NCBI GenBank assembly: GCA_013297875.1
Contig: JAAFIW010000005.1
Location: forward strand, 62,001-126,000
Reading direction: 5' to 3'
Origin: Comamonadaceae bacterium
GTDB taxonomy: Bacteria > Pseudomonadota > Gammaproteobacteria > Burkholderiales > Burkholderiaceae_C
DNA length: 64,000 bases
Shown here piece by piece: positions 9,161 to 62,609 of the stretch. The notes beneath the pieces are model-generated. The model searched no databases, had not been told where the DNA came from, and was given only the letters and a program-made list of their open reading frames with translations. The first letter of the stretch is position 1; every line of letters begins with the position of its first letter. The position numbers and the translations under genes are program-made.

Positions 9161-9544
9161 CTATTGATCCGGCCCCATGAAGTGTCAACCGTTCGCCCCC
9201 AGCCTGGCGGCTACGAATTCAGTAGCAAAACAGGGCTTAGTAGTGTGCGTAGATGTCGGGGTCGCCCGACAGCGACTCACTTTTCTTTGCGTCGCCAAAG
9301 AAAAGTCAAGCAAAAGAAAGGCGACCCGCAGTCTGGGCCCTCCGCTTCGCTGCGGGTACCTTGCGGTGCTCAAACCCAGTGGGGTCACGTGCAAACTCGC
9401 CTGCGGCTCACACAAGCACATGCCCTGATCCACTGGGTTTTGCGCTCCTCAGCCCAGCCGGACGGGATTTTCGTGTTTGGCTAGACACCTCTCTCAGCCC
9501 GAACGGAAATTTCAAGCTTTATCGGACCGAATCAATAAGGTTCC
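9161..9544. repeat. Noncoding repeat region with stacked hairpins (structured element copy 1)
   Basis: This 384-base gap between rhlE and the patatin gene holds ordered hairpins: CTTTTCTTTG with CAAAGAAAAG (9280-9305), CCGC with GCGG (9342-9355), and an 11-base stem AAACCCAGTGG with CCACTGGGTTT (9372-9382, 9430-9440) that encloses an inner stem and the apex AACTCGCCTGCGGCTCA (9394-9410). A second copy lies at 26040-26136. The left edge (9161-9180) repeats the patatin 3' end at 18 of 20 positions, and 9522-9537 is an inverted copy that pairs with 9546-9561 as a probable terminator hairpin. No credible reading frame is present. Confidence 0.75.
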
Positions 9545-17829: not shown

Positions 17830-20800
17830 ATGTCAGCTGTTTACTTCGATTTGTCGACCGGTAACTTCACACAGAACTGGACGGGTGCAACCCTCACAAA
17901 CGACGACTGGTCTCTGGTGCCCTCCATCATGGGCTACCGAGGCGACGACGTGACGACCACGATTGCGGCCGATCCCCAAACCCTGTTGAACGACGGAACC
18001 CTGACGCCGGATGTGAACGTCAACACCGTCGGGCCCAATACCTTCAACACCGGCGGCGTGACCTACTTCACCGGTGCCAATGCGGCCAACAACGATGTGG
18101 TGGCCTTGAGCGGCTCCGCCACCGCCGACGCACCCAATCTGGTGCTGCACTTGAACGCCACGGGTCGGGAAAACGTGACCGTGAACTACCTGCTGCGCGA
18201 CCTGGATGGGTCTGTCGACAATTCGATCCAAGCCGTTGCCCTGCAGTACCGCATTGGCAACAGCGGCACCTGGACCAATGTGCCCGCAGGTTTCGTGGCC
18301 GATGCCAGTGGTGGCCCCAACACCGCAACGCAGACCAACGCCGTCACCGCCGTGCTGCCCGCCGCGGTCAATGGCCAGGCACAGGTTCAGGTGCGCATCA
18401 TCACGGTGAACGCAACCGGTAACGATGAGTGGATTGGCATTGACGACATCGTTGTGAGCAGCGCACCCGCCGCCGTCGCCAACCCCACCGTCAACCTCTC
18501 TGTCAGCACCAACACCGGTAGCGAAGCGGGCACCACCGTCATCACCGTTACCGCCACCGCATCTGCCGCCGTCACCGGCGCACAAACCGTCAACCTGGGC
18601 GTCACCGGTACCAACGTCACTGCGGGTGACTATTCGCTGTCCAACACGGTCATCACCATTGCCAACGGTGCCACCACCGGCAGCGTGACTTTCACGGTGG
18701 TGGACGACGCGGTAGCCGAGGCGCTGGAAACCGCTGTGCTCACCATCAGCAGCCCCAGCGCGGGCCTCACCTTGGGCACCACGCTCACGCAAAACATCAA
18801 CATCACCGACAACGATACGCCCGCTGCGGGCCTGACCTACGCAAACCCCACGCTGAACGAAGCCAATCCCTTCAACGGCAGCATCAGCGGCAAAACCGTC
18901 ATCACGCTCACCGGCGACACCTTCACCGGTGCCAATGGTGAAAACCTCGTCACCACCAGCAAAGTCACCGTCACCAACGTGCCCGCAGGCCTGACCGCCG
19001 TGCTGGTGCGCACCAGCGCCACCACCGCCGAGCTGAGCTACACCGGCACAGCCACCGCGAATGCCAACGCCAATGACGTGGCCAATGTCACCGTGGCGTT
19101 CGCCAACACCGCCTTCACCGGCAACAACGCGGCCGGCGTCACCGCCTCCACCAAGGTCGACCTGGGGCTGAACTTTGCTGACATCGGCATCACAGGCACT
19201 GTGCAGACCTTCACGCCCAACGCGGGCACCACCACGGGCAGCTCCGACGCGTCCACCGCCATTGCGCTGGACGCCAATTTCATGGTGGTGGCCGACGACG
19301 AAGCCAGCGTGTTGCGCGTGTATGACCGCGCCGGTGGCCCCGCGGTGCTGGAGTGGAGCTACTCGGCCGCTTTAGGCAACGGCGGCGAGCTGGACCTGGA
19401 AGCCGGCACCCGCATTGGCGACACGCTGTATTTCTTCGGCTCGCATAGCAATACCCGGGCTGGCGCTGATGCCAACAGCCGTGAGTTTGTGTTCACCGTA
19501 ACCGTATCGGGCTCAGGTGCCAACACGGTATTCACCTTCGGCAACAAGGCCAGTGGCCTGGAAGCGGCCCTTGCCACCTGGGACAGCAGCAATGTCCACG
19601 GCAAAGGTGCCAACTACTTTGGCTTCACGGCTTCGTCGGCCGCTGGGGTTGCGCCCGAGTTGGTCAACGGCTTTTCCATCGAGGGCTTGACCGCTTCCCA
19701 AGGCGGCAGCAACCTGTTTATCGCCTTCCGCGCACCGCAAACCACCACGACCGGCCGCAACATGGCCGTCATCGTGCCGGTGACCGTGGCCAGCGTGCTC
19801 ACTGCAACACCTGTGTTTGGTGCGCCGATTGAATTGAACCTGGGCGGGCGCGGCATTCGCTCCATCGAAAAATCGTCCAACGGCACGGATTATTTGATCC
19901 TAGCGGGCCCTTCTGGCGGCGCCAGCACCGAGGTCACCAACGATTTCCGCCTGTTCCGCTGGGATGGCGTGAGCACCAGCCCGGTGGAGCTGAACGTAAA
20001 CCTGGATGCGCTGCGCGACGGCACGGGTGGCAGCTTTGAGAGCATCGTGGACGTGCAAAGCACTGCGCAGGGCACGCTGGTGCAACTGCTGCAAGACAAC
20101 GGCGACACCATTTGGCCCGGACAATCGGTGGCTTCCAAAGACTTGGCACCCGGCTTGCAACAGTTTCAGGGCAACTGGGTGTCGCTGGGTGCCAATGTGG
20201 CGGCCGACACCGCAGCCCCCACCCTGGTCAGCGCCACCCCCGCCGACGACGCCACCGGTGTCGCACCCAACGCCAACCTGATCCTGCGCTTCAGCGAAGG
20301 CGTAAAGGCTGGCACCGGCAACTTCGTCATCAGAAAAGTCAGCGACAACTCGGTGGTGGAGACCATTGCGGTGGGCGACGCGACCAAAGTCAGCATCGCC
20401 TTCAACACCGTCACCATCAACCCTGCAACCAACCTGGACCCCAGCACCGCGTATTACGTGGAAGCGGTTGCCGGCACCTTGACCGACACCGCCACGGTGC
20501 CCAACAACTGGGCCGGTTTGACAGGCGCGACGGCCTACAACTTCACCACCAGTGCTCCGTTTGTGGCTCCCAAGCTGCTCATTACCGAAGTCAACTCCAA
20601 CGCTGCGCCCGCCGACTTTTTCGAGCTGTACAACTACGGCACCACAGCCATCGACCTGTCGGGCTGGAGGTGGGACGACGACTCGGCCAACTTCAACGAT
20701 GCCGCCGCAGTGACCTTTGCTGCGGGCACCTCGATTGCCCCCGGCGAAAGAATCATCGTCATCAACACCACCGATGCCGCAGCCTTTCGCGCCGCTTGGG

Positions 20801-23800
20801 GCAACCTGCCCAACAGCGTGCAAGTGATTGCACTGGGCGGCCCTGGCGTTGGCAGCCCAGACGCCATCGCTGTTTTTGATGCCGCAGGCAACCTGGCCAC
20901 ATCGCTGAACCTGACCACGGCTTCCATCACCTCCAGTGCCACCACCGTCATCACGTCTGCCACCCGCGCCGACACCCTCCCCATCGTGGCCGGTCACGCC
21001 GGAGCCGCAGTCGGCGGCACAGCAACGACCTCGGCGGTGTGGGACGGGCTGTCAACCACCGCACCGACCTACACCTTTGCCAAGGTGGGGGAATTTGGCG
21101 GGTTTGCACAAACCACGGTCACCAACATCGGCTCCCCCGGTGCCATTCCCACCCCTGGCGTTGGTGCCAGCATCACAACCCCCGTGCTGCGCCCCTTCAC
21201 CGCCACCTTGGGCGACTTCACCATCTTCAGTGTCGATACCGACACCACCAACACCTGGTTTCGCAACACCACCGGTCTGGGCGCGGAAGTCAACGGCTTT
21301 GCCGACACCGCACCGGCCAACGACTGGCTGATCACACGCGGCTTCAACCTGAACCTGACCGATGCCGAGTACCTGAGCTTCACCACCTGGACGCGCTTTG
21401 TCGACTCGGTGACCGTGAACCCGGAAGTCAAAATCAAGTACTCGCTGAACTACAGCGGCAGCGGAGACCCGACCACCGCCACCTGGACTGATTTGAGCTA
21501 TGTGCCCTCCCCAGAAAACAGCCAGGTCATCACGCCATCGGGCCTGATTGACCTGTCTGCTATCGGCGGCACCAACGTGTACTTTGCCTTCCAGTACACC
21601 GCCACCAGCGGCAGCAATGCGGCGCAATGGCGCGTGGACGATGTGAAAATTGAGGGCTATGTGGGCTCAGTGGTGTCGGTTGCTGCGACCACGACGAATC
21701 TGCTGGAAGGCTCGGTTGGCACCGTGGCCCACACCTTCACTGTGACCCGTAGCGGCAACACCACGGGCACGTCCACGGTCAACTGGGCGGTGACCGGCCC
21801 CACAGTGGATGCCACCGACTTTGGTGGCACCTTGCCGTCAGGCACGGTCAACTTTGCGGCCAACCAGACCACGGCGACCATCACGGTCAATGCCTCGGGC
21901 GACACCACACCCGAAATCAACGAGAACTTCACAGTCACGCTGTCAACGCCCAGCGTGGGCACGTCCATCGTCGTAGCTACAGCCACCGGCAGCATCGTGT
22001 CAGACGATGCGCCCATCACCAAAATCAACGTCATTCAGGGTTCCGGTTTGGCAACCACGCTGACGGGTGCCGCCGCCACCGGCCTTACCATTCAGGGCGT
22101 CGTGACCGCCTTCAAGCCCAACCTGCAAGGCTTCTACATTCAGGAGGAAACGGCCGATCAAGACGCTGATGCAACCACGTCTGAAGGCATATTCGTTTTC
22201 TACGGCACGACGCTGCCCGCTGGTTTGAACGCCAACAGCGTAGGCGACATCGTGCAGGTCACCGGTAACGTGGTCGAAACCAACGGCATGACGCGCCTGA
22301 CCACCCTCAGCGGCTTTCAGACCATCATCGACAACGCCGCGCAAACCCTGCCTGCACCCGTCGCCATCACCCTGCCAGTAGCCGCCCTGGCCAACTGGGA
22401 AGCGGTTGAGGGCATGCTGGTGACCGTCTCGTCTGGCACCACCGTGGGCGGAAAACTGGTGGTGACCGACAGCCAAAACTACGGCCAATTCGGCCAGTTG
22501 ACCCTGACCTCGGACGACCTGCTGGTCAACTTCACCGAAACCAACACGCCCAGCACAGCCGGCTATACCGCCTACATCGCCTCCACCGTCAGAGACCAGA
22601 TCGTGGTGGACGACAGCACCACCGCGCAAAACACCGACGTGCTGGGTGCCAACGGCGCACCGCTGTCAGCCAGCAACACCCTGCGCGCCGGCAGCTCCGT
22701 TGCCAGCGTGACAGGGGTTCTGGATCAGTCAACCACTAACCCTTCATCAGCCCCGTACGAAACCACTTACCGCATTCAAACCACCGAAAACGTGGTCTAC
22801 ACCGCAGCGCCCCGGCCCACCGCTGCCAGCCTGCCCGCCAATGTGACCAATGCGGAAATCAAAGTCGCTTCAGTCAACGTGCTGAACTACTTCACGGACC
22901 TGGCAGACGGCAACGACAACACCACCGAATTCACCAACCCCCTAGGCACCGCTTTCTCTTCACGTGGTGCCAACTCAGCCGCTGAATTCACCCGCCAGAA
23001 AGACAAACTGGTGGCCAACATCCTGGGGCTGAATGCCGATGTGGTGGGCCTGATGGAAATGCAGAACAACGGCTTTGGCGACGGCACCAGCGGCATTGAC
23101 TCGCTGGTGGACGCGCTGAACCTGGTGGCTGGTGCAGGTACCTACGCCTACGTTTCAGGCCCTTACCCCGACGGGAATGGCGCACCTGCCGCAACGGCGG
23201 GCGGCGACGCCATCATGGTGGCGTTTTTATACAAGCCAGCCAAAGTTACCCTGGTGGGGCAAGCCGCCACGCCCGATTTAAGCAATGCGGCCTATGACGC
23301 TTTCACCTCCACTTACGGTAGCCGTGCACCCGTCGCCCAAACCTTTAAGGCTGTTGGCGACAACGAAGTGTTCACCGTGGTGGCCAACCACTTCAAATCC
23401 AAAGGCAGCGCAACGGCCACTCAGGGCCTGGATGCAAACGATGGTGCGGGTAACGCCAATTTGGCTCGCGACCGCGCTTCCACCCAACTCCTCAGCTGGT
23501 TGGCCACCAACCCCACCGGCAGCACCGATACCGACATCCTGCTGATTGGCGACTTCAATGCTTACAGCAACGAGCAGCCCATCACCACCCTGACCAATGC
23601 GGGCTACACCAAGGTGTCCACCGGCTTGTCATACGTGTTTGACGGCCTGTGGGGTTCACTGGATCACGCCATCAGCAGCACCTCGCTGACCAGCCAGGTC
23701 ACCGGGGCCGTTAAGTGGGGCATCAACGCCGAAGAGCCCACCGTGCTGGACTACAACATCGAGTTCAAGAGCACCGGCCAGCAAACCTCGTTTTACGCGC

Positions 23801-24858
23801 CCGATGCCTACCGCTCCAGCGACCACAACCCGGTGTTGATTGGCCTGAACCTGGATTCGCCTGCCGTGAACCTGAGCGTCAGCACCGCTGCTGCATCTGA
23901 AGCAGGCGCTACGGTGGTCACCGTCACTGCCACCGCATCGAGCGCTGTCGCAGGCCCGCAAACCCTTGCGCTGGCTGTTAGTGGCACCGGCATCACCATC
24001 ACCGACTACAACTTGAGCGGCACCACCATCACCATTGCCAACGGTGCCACCACTGGCACCGTGACCTTCACCGTACTGGACGACACCGTGTTTGAAGGCA
24101 CCGAGGTGGCCACGCTGACCATCAGCACCGCCAGTTCGGGCATCAAGCTGGGTGCCACCACCGCGCAAAACATCACCATTGCCGACAACGACCTGGCACC
24201 ACCAGCCCCACCCTCGCCTGCGCCTGTACCGGCCCCCGCATCGCCAGAGGACAACGCACCGGCCCTGGTTCTGTCGGCCACCTCGCCGGGTCAGCTGGGC
24301 GACGGCAACGGCGATGGCATTGCCGATTCGTTGCAAAACAATGTGCAGTCGTCACCCATCCGGTCACCTTCGGCCCCGGCCAGCGCACCGTCCAGCTTTG
24401 TGACCCTGGTAGCCGATTCACTGAACGGCAAAACCGACAACACCGATGGCAACAGCGCGCAGATCACCAGCTTTGGGCAACCGGGCACGCCGCTGCGCAC
24501 GCCCACATCGCTCACGACGCCGGTGGGCCAGATCAACTTTACGGCCAACCTGGGCCAAAACGGCATCACCGAGTCGTTCAGCTTGTACGTGGATCCATCG
24601 CTGGGCGTGAACGGTTACTGGGCGCAGGACAAGTCTGGCACCTGGGTCAACCTGGCCAGCGCACCCTACGGTGGCCAGATCGTGACCGAAGGCAACAAAA
24701 TCCGTCTGGACTTCAAGATCACCGATGGCGGTGTGTTTGACACCGATGGACTGGCCAATGGCAGCGTCAGCCACACCGGCGTGGCAGGCAATATGCCCCT
24801 TTCCATCGTCGGCCAGCCAGCAGACCTTCCACCGGGTGGGGCATTTTTCTTCGGGTGA
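17830..24858 (+). CDS. Giant extracellular nuclease, ExeM/NucH-like, multidomain
   Basis: A 2342-residue protein of low charge, rich in Thr, Ala, Asn and Gly. Domains in order: unknown N-terminal strand domain (1-215), Calx-beta (about 217-325), a propeller-like DUF3616-type region (450-790), Ig-like Big_5 (792-906), lamin-tail domain starting LLITEVNSN (912-1100), a jelly-roll (1117-1277), Calx-beta (1280-1393), an OB-like ExeM domain (1395-1600), endonuclease/exonuclease/phosphatase nuclease (1675-2008) with NVLNYF, LMEMQNNG, ANHFKSKG, GDFNAY and SDHNPVL, a third Calx-beta, and a C-terminal domain ending GGAFFFG. No Sec signal peptide is seen; type I secretion is possible, but no exporter adjoins. 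AAGGA lies 6 bases before the ATG. Role: extracellular or surface DNA breakdown. Confidence 0.88.
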   Translation: MSAVYFDLSTGNFTQNWTGATLTNDDWSLVPSIMGYRGDDVTTTIAADPQTLLNDGTLTPDVNVNTVGPNTFNTGGVTYFTGANAANNDVVALSGSATADAPNLVLHLNATGRENVTVNYLLRDLDGSVDNSIQAVALQYRIGNSGTWTNVPAGFVADASGGPNTATQTNAVTAVLPAAVNGQAQVQVRIITVNATGNDEWIGIDDIVVSSAPAAVANPTVNLSVSTNTGSEAGTTVITVTATASAAVTGAQTVNLGVTGTNVTAGDYSLSNTVITIANGATTGSVTFTVVDDAVAEALETAVLTISSPSAGLTLGTTLTQNINITDNDTPAAGLTYANPTLNEANPFNGSISGKTVITLTGDTFTGANGENLVTTSKVTVTNVPAGLTAVLVRTSATTAELSYTGTATANANANDVANVTVAFANTAFTGNNAAGVTASTKVDLGLNFADIGITGTVQTFTPNAGTTTGSSDASTAIALDANFMVVADDEASVLRVYDRAGGPAVLEWSYSAALGNGGELDLEAGTRIGDTLYFFGSHSNTRAGADANSREFVFTVTVSGSGANTVFTFGNKASGLEAALATWDSSNVHGKGANYFGFTASSAAGVAPELVNGFSIEGLTASQGGSNLFIAFRAPQTTTTGRNMAVIVPVTVASVLTATPVFGAPIELNLGGRGIRSIEKSSNGTDYLILAGPSGGASTEVTNDFRLFRWDGVSTSPVELNVNLDALRDGTGGSFESIVDVQSTAQGTLVQLLQDNGDTIWPGQSVASKDLAPGLQQFQGNWVSLGANVAADTAAPTLVSATPADDATGVAPNANLILRFSEGVKAGTGNFVIRKVSDNSVVETIAVGDATKVSIAFNTVTINPATNLDPSTAYYVEAVAGTLTDTATVPNNWAGLTGATAYNFTTSAPFVAPKLLITEVNSNAAPADFFELYNYGTTAIDLSGWRWDDDSANFNDAAAVTFAAGTSIAPGERIIVINTTDAAAFRAAWGNLPNSVQVIALGGPGVGSPDAIAVFDAAGNLATSLNLTTASITSSATTVITSATRADTLPIVAGHAGAAVGGTATTSAVWDGLSTTAPTYTFAKVGEFGGFAQTTVTNIGSPGAIPTPGVGASITTPVLRPFTATLGDFTIFSVDTDTTNTWFRNTTGLGAEVNGFADTAPANDWLITRGFNLNLTDAEYLSFTTWTRFVDSVTVNPEVKIKYSLNYSGSGDPTTATWTDLSYVPSPENSQVITPSGLIDLSAIGGTNVYFAFQYTATSGSNAAQWRVDDVKIEGYVGSVVSVAATTTNLLEGSVGTVAHTFTVTRSGNTTGTSTVNWAVTGPTVDATDFGGTLPSGTVNFAANQTTATITVNASGDTTPEINENFTVTLSTPSVGTSIVVATATGSIVSDDAPITKINVIQGSGLATTLTGAAATGLTIQGVVTAFKPNLQGFYIQEETADQDADATTSEGIFVFYGTTLPAGLNANSVGDIVQVTGNVVETNGMTRLTTLSGFQTIIDNAAQTLPAPVAITLPVAALANWEAVEGMLVTVSSGTTVGGKLVVTDSQNYGQFGQLTLTSDDLLVNFTETNTPSTAGYTAYIASTVRDQIVVDDSTTAQNTDVLGANGAPLSASNTLRAGSSVASVTGVLDQSTTNPSSAPYETTYRIQTTENVVYTAAPRPTAASLPANVTNAEIKVASVNVLNYFTDLADGNDNTTEFTNPLGTAFSSRGANSAAEFTRQKDKLVANILGLNADVVGLMEMQNNGFGDGTSGIDSLVDALNLVAGAGTYAYVSGPYPDGNGAPAATAGGDAIMVAFLYKPAKVTLVGQAATPDLSNAAYDAFTSTYGSRAPVAQTFKAVGDNEVFTVVANHFKSKGSATATQGLDANDGAGNANLARDRASTQLLSWLATNPTGSTDTDILLIGDFNAYSNEQPITTLTNAGYTKVSTGLSYVFDGLWGSLDHAISSTSLTSQVTGAVKWGINAEEPTVLDYNIEFKSTGQQTSFYAPDAYRSSDHNPVLIGLNLDSPAVNLSVSTAAASEAGATVVTVTATASSAVAGPQTLALAVSGTGITITDYNLSGTTITIANGATTGTVTFTVLDDTVFEGTEVATLTISTASSGIKLGATTAQNITIADNDLAPPAPPSPAPVPAPASPEDNAPALVLSATSPGQLGDGNGDGIADSLQNNVQSSPIRSPSAPASAPSSFVTLVADSLNGKTDNTDGNSAQITSFGQPGTPLRTPTSLTTPVGQINFTANLGQNGITESFSLYVDPSLGVNGYWAQDKSGTWVNLASAPYGGQIVTEGNKIRLDFKITDGGVFDTDGLANGSVSHTGVAGNMPLSIVGQPADLPPGGAFFFG

Positions 24859-24980: not shown

Positions 24981-25057
24981 TGGTGGTGATAGGTGGATTT
25001 GAACCACCGACATCAGCATTATGAATGCTGCGCTCTAACCAACTGAGCTATATCACC
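24981..25057 (-). tRNA. tRNA-Met (anticodon CAT)
   Basis: Read on the minus strand, GGTGATATAGCTCAGTTGGT opens a standard cloverleaf: acceptor GGTGATA pairs with TATCACC, the anticodon arm GCATTCATAATGC carries CAT at 25021-25023, and the T arm reads GGTGGTTCAAATCCACC. CCA is encoded. The D loop with GTTGGTTA and the lack of a C1-A72 mismatch fit the elongator Met tRNA rather than the initiator. A CAT tRNA for Ile (lysidine-modified) is the less likely alternative. Confidence 0.93.
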
Positions 25058-25858: not shown

Positions 25859-26410
25859 GGATGGAGCCTTTCACAGAATGTTCATTTCATTATTCCCGCG
25901 CAGGTGGCAATACCACCGACCGAGAGCTGCGCGACTTTCTGGCACAAAAACCGGCCGACGGCAAGGTGCCGAAAAAATCCTGCTCGTGCATCGCGCGGCG
26001 GCACATCGCTTGCCCAGTGCCCGCAACCCCGTGCGCCGGCCCGCTTCGCGGGGAGCCTCTGCAGTACTCAGAATGTGGGGAAAGCGCTCGAACTCGCCTG
26101 CGGCTCAAACAATCGCGCTTTCTGATCCCACATTCTTCCGTGCTTCGAGCCCGGCACTCTGATTGGGTTTTGCGGGCAGTGGGCAGGCGCTGTGACTTGG
26201 GGGTGGTGTTGGTGGGGGTGAGTGCCTAGAATCCGTTGCGGGGTATGGTGGCTCAATTTATAACTGTCTTTATGTACAAAACATTCGCCGGAAACCCAAT
26301 ACACAAGCCACTTCTGGAGGATTTTCATGCCCAGTTTATTCCGCAGCCGCCGTTTTAATCCGCAGGTTTTGCGGTCGAAACTACCTTAGGGTGTCGCAAG
26401 GAGTCGCCGA
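25859..26410. repeat. Noncoding stretch with structured element copy 2
   Basis: This 552-base gap holds no credible gene. At 26040-26136 it contains a second copy of the element at 9342-9440: hairpin CCCGC/GCGGG (26040-26052), outer stem AGAATGTGGG/CCCACATTCT (26070-26079, 26127-26136), inner stem GAAAGCGC/GCGCTTTC, and the apex AACTCGCCTGCGGCTCA (26091-26107). The stems differ in bases from copy 1 yet still pair. Near 25890 is a fragment like the TTCCCGCGCAGG repeats. Reading frames here are Arg/Cys-rich and unlike real proteins. Confidence 0.7.
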
Positions 26411-61682: not shown

Positions 61683-62609
61683 TCACTTATTCGTTTGTTG
61701 ACACAACAAGTATTCCTGCATTGTCAAACTGAAACGAACCATTTGCATGACAGCGACTTGGCGCACTTCGGCATCTGTGTCTTTACCGGCAATCAGCCTG
61801 AGCAGACCTGATTTGACTTCATTTGAAGTTAAGGAGGCAATCGCTGTCGCGCCTACCGCTGCCAACTGGGGCAGCTGCGCTTTGTCATTGAACATGCTAA
61901 GGATATCGCTTTCAAGGTATTTCCTGGCTTTGTCCCAGCGTGCCAGCTGCTGAATACTGCTTGCACGCACGTCAGGATCGGCGTGTGAAGTCAAGCCATG
62001 CAAAACGGGCGCAACGGCTTCGCTTTGGGCTGGAGACAGCAGCTGTGGTGCTTGCAAAGCATTGATGGCGGCTAGCACCACTTTTGGATTTTTCTCGGTT
62101 GTCAGGGTCAGCAGTGTCGGCTTGATCAATGATTCTTGCACTTCTTGCATGCCCAGCAGCCTGTATCCATTGATCCGCTTTTGCGCATCTTGCTGATTTG
62201 TCCACTCCACAGCCTGCTGCAAAAGCCGTGGCGACCTTGAAAGCCCAAAGGCTTGCAGGATGTTAAATCTGGCTGTATCATTGGTTTGTAGATCCAATGT
62301 ACGCAGTAGATAGTCCAGCATTCCTTCATTGTCGGCCATTGCCTTGATGACATCGACGCCCAAAACCATATTTTCTTTAGACCAATCGATTTGCTGCAAT
62401 TGCGCCTGGGTGATGGTTGCGGTTTCACTGCGCCCGTGAGCGCTCTGTGCAGTGGGGGGCAGGCTTAAAGCGCTGTGGTTGGCGCTTGGGTACAGATTTT
62501 GGTATGTGGGGGTGGAGCCCACATAGCAGCCGATGAAGAATACAGCGGCAATCAACACCGACCAGAACGCGTAACGCATCAATTTGCTTTGAAATATGGC
62601 GGTATTCAT
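61683..62609 (-). CDS. Membrane-anchored HEAT-repeat protein
   Basis: About 308 residues. One N-terminal helix (YAFWSVLIAAVFFIGCYVG) anchors the protein, and a periplasmic part of paired helices follows, with HEAT-like units VLAAINALQAPQLLSPAQSE, DPDVRASSIQQLARWDKARK and DAEVRQVAVMQMVRFSLTMQ. Such arrays usually bind other proteins. The start is uncertain among ATGs at 62666, 62609 and 62579. It lies 78 bases before small secreted protein copy 1, and a fragment of its 3' end precedes copy 2, so the two genes form a duplicated unit. Function unknown. Confidence 0.7.
   Translation of the reverse strand: MNTAIFQSKLMRYAFWSVLIAAVFFIGCYVGSTPTYQNLYPSANHSALSLPPTAQSAHGRSETATITQAQLQQIDWSKENMVLGVDVIKAMADNEGMLDYLLRTLDLQTNDTARFNILQAFGLSRSPRLLQQAVEWTNQQDAQKRINGYRLLGMQEVQESLIKPTLLTLTTEKNPKVVLAAINALQAPQLLSPAQSEAVAPVLHGLTSHADPDVRASSIQQLARWDKARKYLESDILSMFNDKAQLPQLAAVGATAIASLTSNEVKSGLLRLIAGKDTDAEVRQVAVMQMVRFSLTMQEYLLCQQTNK

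Follow-up and report, generated by a model that had tools for sequence, protein, structure and literature searches.

The window, that is, the whole stretch of 64,000 nucleotides analysed here (positions 62,001 to 126,000 of contig JAAFIW010000005.1, from the Comamonadaceae assembly GCA_013297875.1), contains two copies of a structured element, the features of which are given below in window coordinates and are all assigned to the minus strand. The core of copy 1 spans approximately 9247..9472, and in most copies it runs from GCGTAGATGTCGG to ...ACGGGGTTTC. These edges were set from flanks of the same genome printed side by side (22 on the left and 26 on the right); at the right edge, similarity ends in two copies (L017 and L024) and continues for 60-80 bp in most of the others. 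Within the core, a small pseudoknot occupies 9255..9275, with its stem formed by 9255-9259/9266-9270 and its loop TCGC (9262-9265) pairing with GCGA (9272-9275). Beyond it lie a pyrimidine/purine hairpin with an 8-nt loop at 9280..9305 (CTTTTCTTTG/CAAAGAAAAG, arms 9280-9289/9296-9305), a pseudoknot pairing within 9291..9325 that joins GTCGCC of the loop (9291-9296) to GGCGAC (9320-9325), and what appears to be the third strand of a triple helix at 9312..9319, which reads AAAAGAAA on the plus strand and TTTCTTTT on the minus strand and is parallel to the purine strand of the hairpin. A CCGC/GCGG hairpin that can be read directly (9342-9345/9352-9355) then precedes the apex domain at 9372..9440, which consists of an outer stem (9372-9382/9430-9440), an inner stem (9386-9392/9416-9422), and an apical hairpin with a conserved AACTC / TCAnACA internal loop (9394-9414, the apex itself being 9394-9410).

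In copy 2, a CCCGC/GCGGG hairpin at 26040..26052, also read directly, precedes an apex domain at 26070..26136 with an outer stem at 26070-26079/26127-26136, an inner stem at 26080-26087/26115-26122, the arms of which form a perfect helix of 8 bp, and an apex at 26091-26107. No triple-helix module adjoins this copy, which is absent from the 22 matches that our covariance model (R1, see below) finds in the same genome. An earlier note on this DNA had drawn attention to the layout shared by the two loci (stems, apex, spacer, and preceding hairpin), and every piece that it named lies where it had been placed; the additional perfect hairpin that it saw upstream of the apex domain in copy 1 is present as well, at 9280-9289/9296-9305, and belongs to a second domain. 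The mismatch that it reported in the inner stem of copy 1 (C9388/A9420) is real on the plus strand, but on the minus strand it becomes a G.U pair, and other copies show both end states of this position, CACGTGC/GCACGTG and CATGTGC/GCACATG. Elsewhere in the window, an open reading frame of 2342 codons (17830-24858) lies between the two copies, and a tRNA-Met gene (24981-25057, minus strand) is found about 1 kb from copy 2; at gathering score, Rfam 15 matches only a tRNA in the window. The fold z-scores of the single copies are modest (for copies 1 and 2, respectively, -1.46 and -2.01 on the plus strand and -3.61 and -2.12 on the minus strand), so the case for folding rests on comparison and not on folding energy.

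With up to three mismatches allowed, the apex occurs three times in the window against 0.37 expected from shuffles, a number reached by 1 of 100 shuffles, and in the whole genome there are 26 copies, of which 22 are exact, three have one mismatch, and one has two. The fixed apex of the earlier note is constant within this genome, but elsewhere the inner hairpin of the apex varies while keeping its pairing. The two copies in the window represent different subfamilies. That of copy 1 comprises 24 similar members, some of them partial, most of which carry the triple-helix module (the 22 matches of R1), while copy 2 has a single sister (L021), and R1 matches the flanks of neither. The outer stem of this sister (AGAGTTTGGG/CCCAAACTCT vs AGAATGTGGG/CCCACATTCT) differs by compensated changes, and such compensated variants recur in the genome, in the outer stem of L020, in that of L021 relative to L009, and in the inner stem of L002, L020, and L024.

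Beyond the host, a relaxed apex pattern (AACTCG-n-GCTCAnACA) matched in 19 of 40 genomes comprising this one and its relatives, and a tighter pattern matched in 58 of 200 genomes of the order; both figures are upper bounds, since 19 of the fetched loci were judged to be chance matches and were dropped. In the flanks of the remaining loci the layout is kept and the letters differ in the outer, inner, and apical stems. The apical hairpin, for instance, takes 56 distinct forms among 171 elements, and its stems hold 104 extra pairs beyond GC, compared with a mean of 29 and a maximum of 55 after shuffling. When arms were swapped between elements and scored by RNA duplex energy, the outer arms were not separated (the proper partner beat all swaps in 1 of 85 elements on the plus strand and 3 of 85 on the minus strand), and for the inner arms the test was partly informative (22 and 23 of 85). 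A test based on the longest exact helix was substituted, in which a helix of at least 7 bp was formed by 31 of 85 proper outer arms vs 8.2% of swapped pairs, and by 33 of 85 proper inner arms vs 4.6% of swaps. The selection on a folded strand that had been suggested from two copies is thus borne out in a far larger data set, in which the stems keep pairing while their letters change. Overall the arms do not vary independently, with two caveats: the outer-arm energy test failed, and one C.C mismatch in the outer stem is common to 11 of the 24 copies in the host genome with readable outer arms.

The domain that precedes the apex domain on the plus strand provides a second source of comparison. 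The bases after the next purine run are paired with the loop of its hairpin, and as this joins a hairpin loop to a distant strand, the result is an H-type pseudoknot. Among 88 distinct modules, derived from 210 overlapping apex matches after exclusion of those without a hairpin with an 8-nt loop, 61 form this pairing at 5/5 pairs, against 4.9% in a control with swapped loops; in a later set, 366 of 386 modules had such a hairpin and were retained. In an alignment of 42 sequences (two of the 44 available were left out), four helices, two pseudoknots among them, contribute 27 pairs, and 89.8% of the cells are paired. The covariation that the earlier note had named as a check is found here: the changes that affect both sides of a pair number 137, vs 37 after shuffling and no more than 49 in slid controls. 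In the same 42 sequences, the hairpin helix of the triple-helix module shows such changes in 11 of 13 pairs, and the pseudoknot pairing shows them in three of five, with 97.6% of its cells paired. The second, small pseudoknot lies outside the first, and its loop pairing and stem are paired in 85% and 80% of cells, respectively; in one copy from the host genome (L017), TTGC/GCAA replaces TCGC/GCGA. Model searches were run on sets of 96, 80, 55, 20, and 1 loci, which are part of all the loci collected.

Between the hairpin and the pseudoknot strand lies a run that, read on the folded strand, corresponds to a third strand of pyrimidine type, in parallel orientation to the purine arm of the hairpin. 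A first comparison of mirror and direct readings, loosely anchored, gave 49 mirror, 28 direct, and 19 tied cases, an ambiguous outcome, since the G residues at the ends of the run fit both readings; the test was then re-anchored on the pseudoknot, which is independent of the mirror property. With this anchor alone, and with modules of fewer than four of five pseudoknot pairs removed, 327 of the 343 modules left fit all six tested triples (T on A, C on G, and G on T). One group of loci (L236-L355) had been fetched by a pattern that itself spells one such triple, and once it is excluded, 166 of 181 modules fit. In those modules with asymmetric third-strand codes, the polarity is parallel in 259, antiparallel in 2, and tied in 6. 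When each distinct strand pair is counted only once, 23 of 35 fit all six triples, against a mean of 5.3 and a maximum of 12 after shuffling, and an earlier, smaller set gave 20 of 24 against 4.0 and 11; for ten different seven-letter codes, the third strand fits throughout. In 19 modules there is a T among the first six letters of the purine strand, and 17 of these have the matching G, within two unrelated codes (AAAATAAA and AATAGAAA). For a T.A pair in the parallel motif, G is reportedly the classical choice, as described by Griffin and Dervan. A third strand that matches the duplex in the right polarity across differing sequences is, as read from these letters, the code of a T.A-T / C.G-C triple helix. 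Telomerase RNA, the MALAT1/PAN elements, and the preQ1-II and SAM-II riboswitches contain pseudoknots in which a U.A-U triple helix occupies the major groove, and the modules resemble these in their H-type topology and in the placement of a pyrimidine loop in the groove of a pyrimidine/purine stem. Unlike these RNAs, however, the modules lie at the ends of repeats and not in a host RNA gene, their third-strand code varies from copy to copy and is matched each time, and G faces T at inverted pairs.

These observations also bear on the idea that the compensating arms are a mutational by-product, in which one arm of a hairpin is rewritten from the other by template switching, with the fold under no selection. 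Some outer stems are indeed long and perfect (up to 23 bp in L085), with very different sequences, as would be expected from such a process. Nevertheless, template switching yields inverted repeats and not a mirror third strand with G facing T, and it gives neither pairings between a loop and a distant strand nor strand-specific loops. It is thus contradicted for the triple-helix module, and we regard it as very improbable as a general explanation, although it may have contributed to the outer stem.

Which of the two strands folds can be judged from the pairs that only one of them tolerates. Without recourse to an alignment, 119 distinct hairpins were parsed, and they contain 74 G.T vs 13 A.C pairs when the folded strand (minus in the window) is read; the same count on a MAFFT alignment showed no bias (29 G.T vs 26 A.C). 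The wobble pairs indicate that the minus strand is the one that folds. The loops are also strand-specific. Three kinds of hairpin on the folded strand have GNA or GNYA loops in 127 of 295, 80 of 243, and 134 of 171 cases, vs 9 of 402 in control windows, and GNA triloops alone account for 115 of 295 (the best hairpins preceding the apex domain in other modules), 39 of 243, and 121 of 171, vs 6 of 402 in the controls. Their reverse complement, TNC, is rare in the same hairpins (3, 6, and 0). Many loops are of other kinds, and the tetraloops on the folded strand are GNYA in 66 cases and GNRA in 15 in all.

The nature of these loops is relevant to whether the strand folds as DNA or as RNA. The GNRA loop is the norm in RNA, while GNA loops and d(cGNNAg) are stable loops of DNA; a paper by Nakano et al. 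from 2002 is said to concern the d(cGNNAg) loop in its title. Against such a distinction, a passage in another source mentions minihairpins of extra stability for DNA or RNA alike (PMC10527192). As the loops are often GNA or GNYA and seldom GNRA, single-stranded DNA is favoured over RNA, short of proof, and the folded strand most likely acts as single-stranded DNA. The main rival to this reading is that the fold works as RNA: transcripts that enter the unit from one side or the other would end in the triple-helix pseudoknot, which would protect or process their 3' ends or would be the feature by which a reverse transcriptase recognises the unit and copies it. Covariation and wobble pairs are typical of RNA, as is a pyrimidine triple helix in the major groove, triple helices protect or process the 3' ends of some eukaryotic RNAs, and the inverted pairs described below would give each direction of transcription one functional module near the 3' end. 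The tolerance of G.T pairs and the triple helix are thus compatible with RNA as well, but the frequent GNA triloops and the excess of GNYA over GNRA tetraloops speak for DNA. Furthermore, a 3' hairpin is found in 262 of 387 modules, with a T run behind it on the folded strand in only 7, so that we rejected a function as intrinsic terminator, and by crude ORF calls single modules show no preference for the sense strand downstream of genes (9 sense and 18 antisense in tandem contexts). Among 74 elements with ORFs on both sides, again crudely called, 6 lie between divergent and 30 between convergent genes. Rfam gave no match to the element at gathering score; at E values up to 10, a search of 20 element loci returned the tRNA and ten matches below the cut-offs, one of which, in L085, lies mid-unit with 23.7 bits against a cut-off of 100, and none of which falls on a recognisable end module. 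On balance we find the RNA reading somewhat doubtful, and less probable than that of single-stranded DNA.

The covariance model R1 has matches at E 0.001 in 90 of 369 genomes of the class, and among the matches listed for one module pattern, the carriers include Polaromonas, Acidovorax, Thiobacillus, Methylomonas, Vogesella, Azonexus, and Dechloromonas. One module pattern also matched two viral contigs. In four cases (L177, L181, L182, and L183), draft contigs end inside or near elements, and thus copy numbers in drafts may be too low. We found no published description of such elements in the literature searched by topic, the excerpted text of one candidate source (PMC3733652) is without relevant terms, and a search of papers for sequence words gave one match, which was unrelated. 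Thus, this is apparently an undescribed, large family of repeats in beta- and gammaproteobacteria, with ends that fold as single strands.

The arrangement of the modules suggests that they delimit larger units. Neighbouring modules less than 900 bp apart are divergent ('-+') in 86 of 96 cases, and those separated by 900-5000 bp in 14 of 16, with a median spacing of 501 bp for divergent pairs (n=75). The wider pairs enclose one or two small ORFs. In the host genome itself the elements are single, and only one divergent pair less than 5 kb apart was seen (contig C32, L466:562-4657), with a separation of about 3.9 kb and two ORFs (399 and 323 aa) in between. A set of 20 cargo proteins, one of which (L113) is not between two scored modules, and 10 further genes from arrays were compared with Pfam. 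Of 19 cargo proteins, 6 matched (an ion channel, NYN, DUF5677, DUF3800, NA37, and a DpnII/MboI-type nuclease), and the other 13 were without a match; the NYN protein (L269) has an OST-HTH match only below the cut-off. When 10 cargo proteins were searched with PADLOC, there was one clear match, to the Aga helical nuclease (L360). No larger unit with its own enzyme was recognised in the ORFs of L339 (3.8 kb), L358 (9.9 kb), or L356 (repeated segments). One unit (L114) has no match in plasmids or phages, and units differ from one another in sequence.

Evidence that the elements multiply comes from the host genome, where one nested insertion of about 165-180 bp is found at the same point just after the apex in five copies (L001, L002, L003, L018, and L019) that sit in different surroundings, which indicates that the element multiplied after receiving the insertion. 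The insertion has terminal repeats (GGGAACCTCTGCACAAGTCCTTG / CAAGGACTTGTGCAGAGGTTCCC) and resembles a MITE in its own right. In genus g289, 10 of 11 genomes have modules, with 5-25 each, and the same chromosomal places hold different genes beside the units in different species. Behind another conserved gene, the DNA is not the same across the 8 genomes that were compared, and in the clearest comparison of the same site, one locus in three species has a unit that is common to all and a neighbour that is variable. These same-site comparisons gave no clean empty site or target duplication. By eye, two species have different small gene pairs resembling toxin-antitoxin systems between a stray unit-end motif (GTTTCGCACGC) and the unit (L401:866-1677 and L412:870-1457), and in a third species there is nothing between the motif and the unit.

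Also by eye, the terminal repeats in this genus extend outward as inverted repeats (GGTGGATCG..TTTC in L402, L410, and L413). Together with the inverted pairs and the multiplied nested insertion, they would suit an inert repeat of the MITE or REP kind, in which an ordinary transposase reads double-stranded terminal repeats and the folds only limit problems in replication or transcription. Recognition of a double strand would not be expected to produce three-strand coding or strand-specific loops, and we consider this explanation improbable. The likeness to MITEs and to cargo-bearing non-autonomous transposons is nevertheless real, as these too have inverted ends, are present in multiple copies, and come without an own enzyme that we could find; the difference is that the present ends are under single-strand structural constraint. 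REP sequences and REPINs are moved by RAYT transposases, which are HUH enzymes of the Y1 type, and are thought to be recognised as single-stranded DNA hairpins. They are small intergenic units with two inverted folded modules and many copies, as here, and the copies in our host genome carry GTAG before the first palindrome, as REP sequences do (4 of 4 host modules in the set scanned for such tags). Outside this genome, however, GTAG and CGTC lie within 37 nt of 20 and 23 of 381 modules, respectively, which is not above chance. Moreover, the present units are much larger, have two pseudoknots and a triple helix, and can enclose genes. A Y1 transposase (PF01797 at E 1e-8) is matched in 64 of 90 carriers and in 144 of 279 non-carriers; dependence on RAYTs was rejected, as 26 of the 90 carriers are without a match, some of which are incomplete genomes and one of which (G582) is a single contig.

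Building on the folds and the strand that forms them, on a multi-copy family with paired modules and cargo, and on the multiplication of an insertion-bearing copy, we propose, with a probability of roughly one half, that copy 1 forms an end of a cassette-like mobile unit that is chromosomal and non-autonomous and whose ends act as folded single strands. The functional end would be the folded strand (minus in this window), with its apex domain, its triple-helix pseudoknot, and its small second pseudoknot. In other genomes, where complete units are seen, each has two such ends, inverted and divergent, an arrangement that leaves a fold close to the 3' end of either single strand of the unit, and some units have one or two small accessory genes inside. 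The fold might then be recognised as single-stranded DNA by an enzyme acting in trans, which would move, insert, or copy the unit. The letters of the stems would be free to drift because the shape, the conserved internal loop, and the triple helix are read and not the stem sequence. If this is true, a natural triple helix with three-strand covariation, in about ten codes and hundreds of modules, at the ends of mobile units would represent a new principle of recognition. It could also account for the accumulation of small accessory genes at hotspots where the genome has no integron integrase.

A broader version of this proposal, which we put forward only tentatively, is that the units form a widespread gene-cassette system of beta- and gammaproteobacteria, with two inverted ends of triple-helical single-stranded DNA, a cargo that is in part defence-like, and a recombinase acting in trans, that is, with a logic like that of integrons and without an integrase of a known kind. 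To our knowledge, no pseudoknot or triple helix occurs in attC sites. Excerpts of two sources describe attC as a site that acts as a folded single strand, with the use of one defined strand, stems that vary, and unpaired features that are conserved (PMC2727003, PMC3053210). The present modules share these properties, as well as the small accessory cargo, but they differ in that each unit has two inverted ends, whereas attC cassettes have one site. Integron integrases (TIGR02249 at E 1e-40) are matched in 147 of the 369 genomes of the class, namely in 46 of 90 carriers and 101 of 279 non-carriers. Dependence of the units on such an integrase was rejected, as 44 of the 90 carriers, the single-contig genome G582 included, are without a match. 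The host genome of the window (G000) has two integron-integrase-like genes, located at C5:62489-63433 and C35:94798-95766.
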